From the NCBI GenBank assembly GCA_023487765.1, contig JAMDBW010000039.1, positions 1-32,855 of the forward strand: a stretch of DNA of 32,855 nucleotides, written 5' to 3'. This document shows, in pieces, positions 12,124 to 18,608 of this stretch. The notes below the pieces were generated by a model that ran no database searches, was not told where the DNA came from, and worked only from the letters and a program-made list of their open reading frames with translations. A program made the translations under genes and the position numbers. This DNA comes from Thermoplasmatota archaeon (GTDB taxonomy: Archaea > Thermoplasmatota > Thermoplasmata > Thermoplasmatales > Thermoplasmataceae). Each line of letters opens with the position of its first letter. Within the stretch, counting starts at the first letter, position 1.

Positions 12124-12393
12124 ATGGTAGGAATAAGTGAGCTCTCTAAGACGGTTTCGAAAAAGACAAACACAACGCAGAAGGTTGCGAGAAACGTTAT
12201 CAAGACCTTCCTGGACACTGTCGTCTCCGAGGCGGACAGAAGCAGCAAAATAAACCTTGCTGGTTTTGGAATCTTCGAGAGAAAGATACAGCAGGCCAGA
12301 AAAGCCAGAAACCCGCAAACCAAGAAAATTATAGACGTACCGTCCAAGAAGAAATTTGTCTTCAGAGCATCAAGCAAAATAAAGTACAAATAA
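12124..12393 (+). CDS. HU-like histone analogue HTa
   Basis: An 89-aa DNA-bending, chromatin-forming protein of the bacterial HU/IHF family, the kind that replaces archaeal histones in Thermoplasmatales. It has the HU layout: a helical N-terminus (GISELSKTVSKKTNTTQKVA), the dimer core NLAGFGIFERKIQQARKARNPQTKK (GFG turn followed by the RxxRNPxT beta-arm with its intercalating Pro), and VPSKKKFVFRASSKIK at the end. ATG 12124 follows a GGAGGG site and a very A/T-rich promoter with a perfect inverted repeat. HU genes in this lineage are thought to come from bacteria by ancient transfer. It stands alone, as expected for a highly expressed chromosomal protein. Confidence 0.96.
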   Translation: MVGISELSKTVSKKTNTTQKVARNVIKTFLDTVVSEADRSSKINLAGFGIFERKIQQARKARNPQTKKIIDVPSKKKFVFRASSKIKYK

Positions 12394-13908: not shown

Positions 13909-13927
13909 TCCATTGGAAATTATTCGG

Positions 13928-15271
13928 GTGATCATAGTGAATGTAGATCCAAATTTAACAAAATATCTAATCAAAGCCAAGATTTCGACGGACGGGGTGG
14001 TTGAGAAGCCAGATGTGGTAGGAGCCATATTTGGGCAGACCGAAGGACTTCTGGGAGAAGAGCTTGATCTCAGGGACCTTCAGAAAAGTGGAAAAATAGG
14101 TAGAATTGAAGTAGAAATAGACAGCAAGAAAGGACGAACCGAGGGATACGTTCTGATACCCTCGGGTCTTGACCAGGTAGAGAGTTCAATTCTGGCTGCA
14201 TCTCTTGAGACCATTGATAGAATTGGTCCGTGCAAAGCCAAGGTTGAAGTTGAATCTCTTGAGGATGTCAGGATACAGAAGAGACACAAGATCGTTGAGA
14301 GAGCTGAAGAACTGTACAAGAAAATGAGCGATACAGGAAAGAGCGTCAGCGAAAGTATTGTGGCATCCGTCAGGGAAGAGGTTGAAAAGGGAGAAATTGT
14401 ATCTTACGGCGAAGAGAAATTACCTGCAGGTCCGGCAGTTAAGGACTCTGATTCCATAATAGTTGTGGAGGGAAGGAGTGATATCCTGAACCTGCTGAGA
14501 TATGGAATAAAGAATACCATAGCCGTGCAGGGGACAAACATCCCGAAAACCGTACAGAAATTATCCAGGGAACGCACAGTGACTGTTTTTCTTGATGGAG
14601 ACCGCGGAGGAGACCTGATTCTGAAGGAGATGCTTCAGGTAGCGGAGATCGATTTCGTTGCCAGAGCTCCTCCCGGAACCGAAGTGGAGGAACTTACTTA
14701 CAAGCAGATAGTTAAGGCTCTCAGATACAAAACACCGATAGATCAGTACCTGTCAATGAGGGGTATGTCCGATGAACTGAAGGAACTGACGGAACGCAAC
14801 ACACCGGAAAACCAGAACAAGCAGATCAAGAGAGGCTACGAGGACGCTAAGGCCGTTGTGGAGATAAAGTCCCTCAAATTTGACGAGGAAGAGAAAAAAG
14901 AGGAGAAGCTTCCCAAAGAAAAAGTTCCGGCTAAAATAGAGCAACCAGAACCGGAGGAAATACCGGGAAAAGTTGATTTAGCCAATACGAGATCTATTGA
15001 AAAGAGAGGCATAATCCTTACAAAGGATAAGATGACCGAGGTTTATAGCCACGATGGAAACATAATCGCAGCATTTCAGGTGGCTGAGGCAGTGGAAAAA
15101 ATGAGTGAAATTACTTCTGGTGAGACAATAATCACCGGTGGTGTGATTTCTCAGCGCCTTGTTGATGTTGCCTTCAAGTCCGGGATAAAGAACATATACG
15201 GTGCCAAGTTGGGACACATAACCAAGAAGCCAACAGAAGTCAGGGTAATTTCATGGGAGCGCCATTCATAA
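13928..15271 (+). CDS. dnaG: DnaG-type primase (archaeal)
   Basis: Archaeal DnaG, a TOPRIM protein with primase activity in vitro that is also a subunit of the RNA exosome in archaea. The N-terminus VDPNLTKYLIKAKISTDG and EKPDVVGAIFGQTEGLLG is highly characteristic. TOPRIM follows: VVEGRSDILNL with E181, and FLDGDRGGD with D223 and D225. A charged, low-complexity linker rich in Glu/Lys/Pro (EEKKEEKLPKEKVPAK) leads to a C-terminal domain (TRSIEKRGIILTKDKMTEVY...). Possible starts are TTG 13913, GTG 13928 and GTG 13937; TATA spacing favours 13928, giving 447 aa. The last 19 nt overlap the next gene. Confidence 0.95.
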   Translation: MIIVNVDPNLTKYLIKAKISTDGVVEKPDVVGAIFGQTEGLLGEELDLRDLQKSGKIGRIEVEIDSKKGRTEGYVLIPSGLDQVESSILAASLETIDRIGPCKAKVEVESLEDVRIQKRHKIVERAEELYKKMSDTGKSVSESIVASVREEVEKGEIVSYGEEKLPAGPAVKDSDSIIVVEGRSDILNLLRYGIKNTIAVQGTNIPKTVQKLSRERTVTVFLDGDRGGDLILKEMLQVAEIDFVARAPPGTEVEELTYKQIVKALRYKTPIDQYLSMRGMSDELKELTERNTPENQNKQIKRGYEDAKAVVEIKSLKFDEEEKKEEKLPKEKVPAKIEQPEPEEIPGKVDLANTRSIEKRGIILTKDKMTEVYSHDGNIIAAFQVAEAVEKMSEITSGETIITGGVISQRLVDVAFKSGIKNIYGAKLGHITKKPTEVRVISWERHS

Positions 15272-16752
15272 ATACTGACGTCAGGGATGCGACTGACACT
15301 TCTCAGATTCCAATACCGGCCAATCCTCTGGAAAGGGTTATAGGACAGGATGAAGCTGTCCGAATGGCGCAAATCGCAGCGAAACAGAGAAGGCATCTGC
15401 TCCTTGTGGGACCACCTGGCGTGGGTAAGTCGATGATCGCGCAGGCAATTTCGTTCTATATCTCGAGACCGCGCGAAGAGATCAGGGTCGTGCATAACCC
15501 ACAATATCCGGAGAGACCATTCATAGAGATTAAGACTGGAGATCAGATAAGTCAGGAAAGAGAGGAACAGAACCTGGTTGAGGGAGAGGTCATCGATCCC
15601 AGGGATGCCCCGGTCAATGTTGCTGAAAGGCTTGGATACAGATGCCAGAGATGCGGGTATTATTCATTTCCGACTGAACCGACCTGCCCGAACTGCAGTA
15701 ATCCTAAAATCCAGACATCTACGCAAGGTCCTTTCGGAGACGTTTTTAACGTTATTGGTGCTGCATTCGGCGTCCAGAACAATACTGAAAAAATCACATC
15801 GACGAGAAGGAACGGAGATCGGGAGGAAGTTATAGTCTACGAGCGTTTCGGTGACCACATAAGGATTCTGGATGAAAAAACGCTTGAACGAAGAAGAAAA
15901 ATGGAAAAGAAAAGTCCGGGCAAAGTTATTGTGCCCATAGACAGGACTCCTTTCGTGCTCGCAACCGGCGCAAGCGAAACTGAACTGCTGGGAGATGTTA
16001 GGCATGACCCGTACGGGGGACATCCCCAGCTTGGTACCTTGCCATATGAAAGAGTGATAGCAGGTGCGGTGCACGAATCACACGAAGGTGTGCTTTTCAT
16101 AGACGAGATCACCCATCTTGGAAACCTTCAGAGATTTATCCTCACTGCAATGCAGGAAAGAAGTTTTCCGATAACCGGGAGAAACCCGCAGAGTGCAGGA
16201 GCCAGCGTCAGGGTGGACAGGGTTCCTGCCAATTTCATACTCGTTGCGGCATGTAACATACGGGACTTGCAGTACATCCTTAGCCCGCTGAGATCAAGAA
16301 TCGTCGGGAGCGGCTACGAGATGCTCATGGCAGTCTCAATGCCTGATATCCCGGAGAACCGCTTCAAATATCTACAGTTCATGGCTCAGGAAATAATAAT
16401 CGACGGGAAGATTCCTCACCTGGCAATGGAGTCTGCTCAATTGATAATTGAAGAAGGCATCAGGCGGGCCAAAGAAATTGATCATAAAGATCATTCCCTG
16501 ACTCTCAGACTGAGAGAGCTAGGCGGGCTGATACGGGCTTCCGGAGATATCGCTGTTTCAAAGAAAGGCAGTCTGATAGAGATCTCAGACGTGAAAGAGG
16601 CACTCCAGATGTACCTGCCGGTAGAGGAAAAAATAAAGAAATATTACGGCAACATGGGGGCCGCTGTATCGTCTGAGAGCACTCTCTCGCAGAGAAGTGA
16701 GGAGTATATGATGAACTACCATAACTACAGGGAAGATCGATCGTATGACTGA
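15253..16752 (+). CDS. LonB-like AAA+ ATPase with zinc ribbon, no protease domain
   Basis: A 499-aa AAA+ ATPase whose core matches archaeal LonB: ERVIGQDEAV at the start, Walker A GPPGVGKS (53-60), ELLGDVRHDPYGGHPQLGT, Walker B VLFIDE (280-285), then AACNIRDLQYILSPLRSRIVG (sensor region), MPDIPENR, and LTLRLRELGGLIRASGDIA (sensor 2 region). Two departures stand out. Where LonB has its membrane-anchor hairpin, between Walker A and B, this protein has CQRC...CPNC (Cys 131, 134, 145, 148), a zinc ribbon. And the chain ends soon after the ATPase module with no S16 protease domain or Ser-Lys dyad. It overlaps dnaG by 19 nt, so expression is coupled. It is probably a soluble remodelling ATPase; the substrate is unknown. 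Confidence 0.85.
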   Translation: MGAPFINTDVRDATDTSQIPIPANPLERVIGQDEAVRMAQIAAKQRRHLLLVGPPGVGKSMIAQAISFYISRPREEIRVVHNPQYPERPFIEIKTGDQISQEREEQNLVEGEVIDPRDAPVNVAERLGYRCQRCGYYSFPTEPTCPNCSNPKIQTSTQGPFGDVFNVIGAAFGVQNNTEKITSTRRNGDREEVIVYERFGDHIRILDEKTLERRRKMEKKSPGKVIVPIDRTPFVLATGASETELLGDVRHDPYGGHPQLGTLPYERVIAGAVHESHEGVLFIDEITHLGNLQRFILTAMQERSFPITGRNPQSAGASVRVDRVPANFILVAACNIRDLQYILSPLRSRIVGSGYEMLMAVSMPDIPENRFKYLQFMAQEIIIDGKIPHLAMESAQLIIEEGIRRAKEIDHKDHSLTLRLRELGGLIRASGDIAVSKKGSLIEISDVKEALQMYLPVEEKIKKYYGNMGAAVSSESTLSQRSEEYMMNYHNYREDRSYD

Positions 16753-16835: not shown

Positions 16836-18608
16836 ATGAAGGTTCAGTACGTCTTGGCGATGGAAAAGCCTCAAACCCACTTTTTTAACATAACCATGAA
16901 AATTGAGGACTTCAACGAGGATAACATGCTTGTGACTATGCCCGCGTGGGCACCGGGCTCTTATGAAATCTATGACTTTGCAAGGTTTGTCAGGAACCTG
17001 AAAGCAGTTTCCGGAGAAAATGAGCTTGAAGTCGTGAAGAAAGATAAATCAACCTGGAAAATCGCTACAAAGGAAAGTCACTCGATCAGCCTGACGTATG
17101 AAGTGTACGCCAACGATCTGAGTGTACACACAAGCCAGATCGATTTCACGCATGCTTATCTCAACGGAACCAGTGTTTTCCTCTATGTGGAGGGTTATAA
17201 GGATCAGTCGGTTGAGTTAATAATAAGGCCATTTACAGGCTGGAAAATATCCACTGGTCTGGAGAAGCTCGGCGAAAACAGGTACAGGGCAATCAACTAT
17301 GATATCCTGGCTGACTGCCCGATTGAAATAGGCCTGCACAGAAGCCTTTATTTCAATGTGGAGGGAAAGGAACACGAAATAGTGATCTACGGCCATGGCA
17401 ATGAGAATGAGGAAAAGCTGATAGAGGATCTGAAAAAGATTGTCGAAGCGTATAACAGGATGTTCGGCCACCTGCCTTACAAGAGGTATGTGTTCATATA
17501 TCATCTCGTTTCAGGAGATGATGATGTTGCCGGCGGGCTTGAACATCTCAATTCAACCACTATAGATGTCGACAGATTTATATTCTCTCCTTTTGATAAA
17601 TACAAACAGTTCCTGTCGGTAACGTCGCATGAGTTTTTCCACCTCTGGAATGTCAAGAGAATCAGGCCACAGGAACTGGGTCCTTTCAATTACAAGGAAG
17701 AGAACTACACCACGATGCTCTGGATGGCGGAGGGGATCACGAATTTCTATGCATACCTGATCCTTCTGCGGGCAGGGCTCGTAGACCGGAAAGAATATCT
17801 GAAGCACCTTGCTGAGAATATGAGATTTCATGATTTCCTTCCGGGATCGGGCAACACATCCGCTTCAGAATCATCGTTCGATACGTGGATCAAACTTTAC
17901 AAACCCACGCCAAACAATGTCAACAGCTACATATCGTACTACCTCAAGGGAGAAATGCTCGGATTCATGCTTAATACGAGGATCCTGGAAGTTACCAGAG
18001 GTGGCAAGACCCTTGATGATCTCTACAGGCACCTCATGGAAAAATTCAACCGGGATGGCAAGGGTTATTCTGAGAAAGACGTAATAAACTCTATCAGAGA
18101 GGTTACCGGACACGACTTCTCGGATTTTTTCCAGACTTATGTGAGGAAGCCGGGTAAAATTGATTTCTCCCAGGAACTGAAAAAGCTGGGCCTCATAATC
18201 GGGAAAGGATACCGGAAAGTGGACGGGAAGGAGCCCGAAAGAAAATCATATCTCGGGATAATCGTAAAGGGGAACGGGGGGCGTTATGTTGTGGATTCTG
18301 TTCTGGAGGGATCTCCTGCATTCGAAGCGGGACTCAATCCAAAGGACGAAATAGTAGCCGTTAACGGTTTCAGATTCGGGGACAGATTTCTGAAAGACAT
18401 AAGAGAGGACTTCAAGAAGCTCAAGCTTGACAACCTCACCGATTACGATCCCGGCGGCAAGGTCAGGATCAACTTCTTCAGACGAGGCATGCTGATGGAT
18501 GTGGAACTTACACTATCCAGTGCTCCTTACGAGTATTACGAAATACTGGATGATCCTCAACCGAACAATGGTTCGGAAAATCTCAAATCGAAGTTTCTTG
18601 TAACCTGA
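16836..18608 (+). CDS. M61-family metallopeptidase with PDZ domain
   Basis: A 590-aa zinc aminopeptidase of the M61 (glycyl aminopeptidase) family. The N-terminal beta domain has the family's PAWAPGSYEIYDFARFV. The catalytic part has HEFFHLWNVKRIRP (H265, E266, H269) and the downstream third ligand in WMAEGITNFY. A C-terminal PDZ domain follows: LGIIVKGNGGRYVVDSV, then GSPAFEAGLNPKDEIVAVNGF. No signal peptide is visible, so it should act in the cytoplasm, perhaps trimming peptides from the proteasome. A TATA-like AACTATAATT (16799-16808) lies 32 bp upstream. It is monocistronic. Confidence 0.94.
   Translation: MKVQYVLAMEKPQTHFFNITMKIEDFNEDNMLVTMPAWAPGSYEIYDFARFVRNLKAVSGENELEVVKKDKSTWKIATKESHSISLTYEVYANDLSVHTSQIDFTHAYLNGTSVFLYVEGYKDQSVELIIRPFTGWKISTGLEKLGENRYRAINYDILADCPIEIGLHRSLYFNVEGKEHEIVIYGHGNENEEKLIEDLKKIVEAYNRMFGHLPYKRYVFIYHLVSGDDDVAGGLEHLNSTTIDVDRFIFSPFDKYKQFLSVTSHEFFHLWNVKRIRPQELGPFNYKEENYTTMLWMAEGITNFYAYLILLRAGLVDRKEYLKHLAENMRFHDFLPGSGNTSASESSFDTWIKLYKPTPNNVNSYISYYLKGEMLGFMLNTRILEVTRGGKTLDDLYRHLMEKFNRDGKGYSEKDVINSIREVTGHDFSDFFQTYVRKPGKIDFSQELKKLGLIIGKGYRKVDGKEPERKSYLGIIVKGNGGRYVVDSVLEGSPAFEAGLNPKDEIVAVNGFRFGDRFLKDIREDFKKLKLDNLTDYDPGGKVRINFFRRGMLMDVELTLSSAPYEYYEILDDPQPNNGSENLKSKFLVT

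Follow-up and report, generated by a model that had tools for sequence, protein, structure and literature searches.

A zinc-ribbon, protease-less relative of archaeal LonB encoded beside dnaG

The window analyzed here, a 32,855-nucleotide stretch of DNA from a Thermoplasmatota archaeon, carries an intact open reading frame, starting with ATG, for a 499-aa Lon-type AAA+ ATPase (Table 1). As the earlier note had pointed out, this gene begins inside its upstream neighbor: the last 19 nt of dnaG, which ends at 15271, overlap it. On its other side, 83 nt 3' of the ATPase, lies a gene for an M61 glycyl aminopeptidase with a PDZ domain (16836-18608), a neighbor that is not kept at other loci. Farther upstream, an 89-aa ORF (12124-12393) looks, by eye, like an HU/HTa-type bacterial histone-like protein, of the kind known from Thermoplasma.

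Table 1. Coordinates of dnaG, the ATPase gene and its features in the window
Feature	Position	Strand	Remarks
Archaeal DnaG ORF (exosome-associated primase-like), operon partner; exact start unsettled	13913..15271	+	NF003108, 524.5 bits, cut-off 300
Zinc-ribbon, protease-less Lon-type AAA+ ATPase (499 aa + stop)	15253..16752	+	
Walker A region LLLVGPPGVGKSM, residues 48-61	15394..15435	+	G53, P54, G56, G58, K59, S60, M61 invariant
138-residue insert, residues 93-230, in place of the LonB membrane-anchor segment	15529..15942	+	
Zinc ribbon (predicted) CQRCGYYSFPTEPTCPNC, residues 131-148	15643..15696	+	4 cysteines invariant
Segment around ELLGDVRHDPYGGHPQLGTLPYERVIAG, residues 241-271	15973..16065	+	Mostly invariant; homologous LonB stretch taken as central-pore region
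Walker B GVLFIDEITHLG	16087..16122	+	D284, E285 invariant
Presumed sensor 1 (N335) and PLRSRI segment with candidate arginine finger R347, R349	16255..16299	+	All invariant
Sensor 2 region LTLRLRELGGLIRASGD	16495..16548	+	LonB alignment and family alignment
Flexible C-terminal tail, residues 476-499, ending ...EDRSYD	16678..16749	+	

What kind of AAA+ protein is this? The NCBIfam model for archaeal LonB, TIGR00764, matches it at E=2.4e-96 with 323.7 bits, a score below the model's curated full-length cut-off of 516.6 bits. Among solved structures, that of Thermococcus onnurineus LonB is the closest (3k1j; phmmer E=4.7e-78, Foldseek E=1.7e-34), and LonB is likewise the best fold match of an AlphaFold model computed from a 36-sequence alignment (mean pLDDT 80, pTM 0.69). 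Residues 13-92 align to LonB residues 27-107 of 3k1j, and residues 231-465 to 156-386. The chain has a single Walker A/B set, and little or no variation is seen at its motor residues (Walker A, the Walker B DE pair, N335, R347/R349 and the sensor 2 region) among 36 diverse members of the family; N335 we take to be sensor 1, and R347/R349 the candidate arginine finger, by analogy with other AAA+ proteins. The segment around ELLGDVRHDPYGGHPQLGTLPYERVIAG would form the pore region. The ATPase shares with archaeal LonB (TIGR00764; 3k1j, 4zpx) the AAA+ module, the order of motifs, the sensor 2 region and the point of insertion between Walker A and Walker B; it differs in lacking S16 and the membrane hairpin, in having a zinc ribbon and a docking-type tail, in forming a separate clade and in scoring below the LonB cut-off.

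The insertion, residues 93-230, has no LonB counterpart and holds C131, C134, C145 and C148. The earlier note had described a LonB-like core with CxxC...CxxC where LonB has its membrane hairpin, and the TIGR00764 match, the 3k1j alignment and hydropathy confirm it; the note's ribbon in place of the anchor is correctly positioned but fills only part of the 138 residues, the remainder of which includes a beta-rich segment and a short amphipathic stretch. On the ribbon, Pfam zf-ChsH2 matches at E=9.4e-4, under its gathering cut-off. The two CxxC knuckles, a predicted metal site, are strictly kept in 48/48 relatives and likewise in all other complete members examined (the 105-member Thermoplasmatota set used below for tails had been filtered on the four cysteines). 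The hydropathy maximum of the insert (Kyte-Doolittle, window 19) ranges from 0.2 to 1.5 in 115 family members, the highest being 1.53, versus 2.1-2.9 in LonBs, the lowest being 2.09; hence, the family has no membrane helices. The same genome encodes a complete LonB elsewhere (contig C43; 658 aa), with S16 and a membrane hairpin whose hydropathy peaks at 2.81; it is the genome's only PF05362 match.

Beyond the motor, the chain stops after the sensor-2 helices and a tail of ~30 residues, and Pfam and NCBIfam profile searches of the 499-aa ORF gave no match to an S16 peptidase domain, as the earlier note had claimed. Its view of a soluble, protease-less Lon-type protein that binds zinc, as judged from sequence, is supported by hydropathy, the invariant cysteines and the missing S16; a search for ribbon-bearing homologs with membrane helices or S16 found none. 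Residues 484-499 have pLDDT <50 in the AlphaFold model, which fits a flexible segment.

The family is common. A long match (taken as E<=1e-80, our own count) is present in 127 of 150 sampled genomes of the class; members occur in 71 of 194 sampled genomes of the phylum, and long matches in 57 of 196 genomes of the Asgard phylum Thorarchaeota. A scan of named genomes located members in Methanomassiliicoccales, Thermoplasmata, Micrarchaeota, one Altiarchaeales and Thorarchaeota. Several of the counts in this analysis were tallied by reading through result tables. An unrooted tree splits the family from LonB at 100/100 support. Two families of the class, f9 (16 genomes) and f3, do not have the ATPase, though most of the class does; one f3 genome (G096) retains dnaG and PAN. 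In Thor-type Asgard genomes (e.g., G306, G307, G308, G309 and G310) the single match in each is the zinc-ribbon ATPase and none is LonB-sized; full-length LonB may thus be absent there.

The ATPase is not a LonB because it has neither S16 nor the membrane anchor and does not reach the score cut-off. It is a conserved, uncharacterized variant of the Lon AAA+ kind that belongs neither to LonB nor to PAN or Cdc48. The PAN model NF003069 (cut-off 500 bits) gives E=0.014 and 14.6 bits. The second-best fold match is MtaLonC, also a Lon relative off the standard Lon plan, which has been described as devoid of ATP-powered unfolding (PMC3391209). LonC is the reverse case: it keeps the protease, whereas the ATPase keeps the motor and has lost the protease. 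A related P-loop region is found in YifB/ComM and Mg-chelatase-like AAA+ proteins (Pfam Mg_chelatase E=2.3e-14), but the similarity is local and far below equivalog cut-offs. We found no description of the family in the literature searched, most subscription journals lying outside its reach. A Cuniculiplasma proteome paper lists, in addition to LonB, an unspecified "protease Lon homolog", CSP5_1716, which may be the same protein; members are likely auto-annotated as LonB or as a Lon homolog.

The clearest genomic association is with dnaG. In the phylum sample, 66 of 71 members have dnaG as their immediate upstream neighbor in the same orientation (tables compared by hand); among the remaining five, three sit at contig ends, one has dnaG ~1 kb off and one has it on a different contig. 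The two genes overlap by 16-19 nt in most sampled relatives of the window's family and are elsewhere mostly separated by short gaps. An apparent dnaG-ATPase fusion (a 976-aa ORF at L071) proved to be an out-of-frame shadow ORF. No neighbor besides dnaG is consistently conserved in Thermoplasmatota, and a larger operon was rejected on this ground. Asgard loci fall into three types. In the Thor type (n=16), with the order dnaG-ATPase-pelota, pelota is directly downstream in 16/16 and dnaG is within 1.5 kb upstream in 12/16; the downstream gene is identified as Pelota by an NCBIfam equivalog (285 bits, cut-off 178). In group 2 (n=7) dnaG is upstream in 6/7, and in group 3 (n=7) there is no dnaG within 1.5 kb. 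Neither the Micrarchaeota members nor the Altiarchaeales member lies close to dnaG. With dnaG at most loci and Pelota in Thor, the association is primarily with DnaG and secondarily with RNA surveillance.

Does the link to dnaG, then, reflect the exosome? In five genomes of >=90% completeness, from three families (G167, G175, G181, G186 and G214), no Rrp41 scores above the cut-off, which MAG incompleteness could explain; these genomes encode a full-length bacterial-type PNPase (~820 bits; two RNase PH domains and S1) on contigs C66, C47, C61, C74 and C25, respectively (loci L362-L366). All five keep dnaG and the ATPase, adjacent in 4/5. These data suggest that PNPase has replaced the archaeal exosome core in some archaea; a related genome, G193, appears to carry both PNPase and Rrp41. 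Since the pair persists with PNPase where Rrp41 is undetected, its linkage is not simply an exosome matter, and the exosome core is weakened as the cause. Archaeal DnaG occurs also in archaea that have no exosome (PMC4227792), and together these observations fit a partnership with DnaG itself better than a role at the exosome ring. Of the DnaG, exosome or replication biology envisaged by the earlier note, the first has held up as a gene linkage in Thermoplasmatota and Asgard archaea alike, the exosome core has lost ground, and no replication link was seen.

The clearest mechanistic clue, which the earlier note missed, is the conserved docking-type tail. In a set of 105 distinct Thermoplasmatota sequences, 104 have Y or F as the second-last residue (Y in 81, F in 23) and the one exception has I; position -3 is G in 52, M in 26, S in 22 and another residue in five, so that it is G or S in 74/105 and in about half is G, which is not hydrophobic. 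The chain ahead of the motif varies in length, which indicates that the motif is anchored to the C-terminus. For comparison, dnaG products have F at the second-last position in 8/130 and Y in none, and none of the LonB chains compared has such an ending. The tails of PAN and Cdc48 dock in pockets of the 20S proteasome α-ring, and the ATPase shares their vocabulary. In methanogenic families its tail is M-F-x, like that of PAN in the same genomes: PAN, an accepted 20S cap, ends in M-F-x in 37/42 genomes of the phylum, and in the sample compared with PAN (n=43) the ATPase ends in M-F-x in 20, M-Y-x in two and G-Y-x in 18. Because PAN has M-F-x nearly everywhere, real covariation of the two tails is not separable, and the M-F tail of the ATPase may be a single evolutionary event. 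Thermoplasmatota PAN (L182-L186, L261-L307) ends mostly in MFA or MFG, not the canonical hydrophobic-Y-x, a phylum-wide variant of the docking motif.

Cdc48, too, has a tail with an aromatic second-last residue. In the window's own family, which lacks PAN, it ends in GLYQ where checked, and in several Thor-type genomes in P-G-Y-V or P-G-Y-I; thus, G ahead of the tyrosine occurs in a recognized family of proteasome partners. The Thor-type ATPase ends in YFF, YFL or YYL, matching the Y-Phi (Y-F/Y) motif of human 20S activators, and hexavalent caps put up with departures from the canonical motif (PMC8907193). Tails in Altiarchaeales and Asgard group 3 are GYR or LYG. PAN and Cdc48 are nevertheless different machines: PAN, with an intact AAA+ motor like that of the ATPase, is of another AAA+ lineage, and Cdc48/VAT has two AAA domains where the ATPase has one, of the Lon type, with a zinc ribbon; the putative link of the ATPase to 20S is read from its sequence.

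Two branches do not have the docking-type tail. Micrarchaeota members end in ETA, ETV, EVA or similar. The seven Asgard group 2 members (L225-L227, L229, L231-L233) end in PxNxWN-G/S and have no terminal aromatic tripeptide; this ending resembles the internal SPYxYWN (YxxWN) motif of Thermoplasmatota tails, which suggests two separate tail motifs, one YxxWN-type and one the terminal tripeptide. A programmed stop in group 2 was rejected, as there is no conserved reading past the stop. Genomes of Micrarchaeota and the Thor type encode 20S subunits in 14/14 tested; loss of the Micrarchaeota tail for want of 20S or DnaG was rejected, since every genome tested has 20S and nearly every one has DnaG. 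The window's family (f1, 19 genomes) has no PAN above the cut-off in any sampled member, and relatives of the same order have it. Replacement of PAN by the ATPase was rejected: most genomes with the ATPase have PAN as well, other lineages lack both, and the profile thus shows no replacement signal.

With an intact motor, a zinc-ribbon insert in place of the anchor, a flexible tail in place of S16 and a gene tied to dnaG, the ATPase may be a soluble Lon-family unfoldase that has exchanged its own protease for the 20S proteasome in trans and serves quality control linked to DnaG and Pelota. We favor this reading, at a little short of even confidence. The protease of LonB comes after the AAA+ module in the chain, and substrate therefore reaches it by way of the motor; a protease ring docked by the tail would keep this direction of threading, which favors a Lon-type unfoldase acting in trans with 20S. 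Subunits would assemble into a ring that draws substrate through its pore as LonB does, and the tails, [G/M/S/L/Y]-[Y/F]-x-COOH, would sit in the α-ring pockets; the zinc ribbon, on the entry side, would read a substrate or an adaptor. Expression together with DnaG, joined by Pelota in the Thor type of Asgard archaea, makes RNA-surveillance or ribosome-rescue complexes the most likely place of action, where the ATPase would extract or destroy proteins at DnaG-marked complexes. In the tail-less lineages, the ring could be a pure remodeler or use a different dock. The more specific proposal, a Lon-derived proteasome cap with HbYX-like docking to 20S that is dedicated via DnaG (Pelota in Asgard) to RNA surveillance or ribosome-associated quality control, we put forward tentatively.

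The nearest rival to a 20S-linked unfoldase is a dedicated, non-proteolytic remodeler or loader of DnaG-containing RNP complexes (an exosome cap, or Pelota-bound stalled ribosomes), with the tail and YxxWN binding DnaG or another partner. The tail might indeed dock there. In favor of a remodeler, linkage to dnaG is the strongest and deepest signal, Asgard group 2 keeps it along with a YxxWN-like motif and not the terminal tripeptide, and binding of nucleic acid or protein is common among zinc ribbons. However, a terminal tripeptide like those of proteasome caps is conserved in Thermoplasmatota beyond YxxWN, GYR or LYG tails are kept where dnaG is not nearby (Altiarchaeales and Asgard group 3), and the pairs that persist with PNPase show that the exosome core is not required. 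We regard such a remodeler as a credible but somewhat doubtful account. It is improbable that the ATPase serves as a Lon-type chaperone or unfoldase of general use, transcribed along with dnaG only for the sake of expression and functionally unconnected to it: members in Micrarchaeota and Asgard group 3 do lie away from dnaG, and no further gene recurs around the pair in Thermoplasmatota, but the linkage has held across Thermoplasmatota families and distant Asgard lineages while most neighbors have not.

Could DnaG be acting as a primase, with the ATPase as an MCM-like or RuvB-like replication or primosome ring? Pfam models for MCM, RuvB and the Mg-chelatase P-loop match the ATPase weakly, and an interaction of DnaG with MCM has been reported in S. 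solfataricus and is cited as weak (PMC4227792). Yet LonB is closest by a wide margin in sequence and fold, replication genes do not recur in the neighborhood, in Asgard archaea the partner is Pelota, and archaeal DnaG acts mainly in RNA metabolism (PMC4227792), which leaves this a very slim prospect. A degenerate or frameshifted LonB, for which the homologous AAA+ core might speak, has a negligible chance of being correct: the ATPase motifs are intact, a complete LonB is encoded separately, the family forms its own clade, and relatives end at the homologous point, so the protease was not lost by a frameshift.

Widespread in Thermoplasmatota and recurring in Asgard archaea, the family suggests that Lon is not bound to its usual form of a self-contained protease: the motor can be split off and work with a partner. 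Should its tail dock to 20S, the ATPase would join PAN and Cdc48 as a third kind of archaeal proteasomal motor, and small recombinant proteins would allow a direct test of whether RNA surveillance (DnaG, Pelota) is tied to protein destruction. The ATPase also offers a handle on the job of DnaG in lineages without a detectable exosome core.
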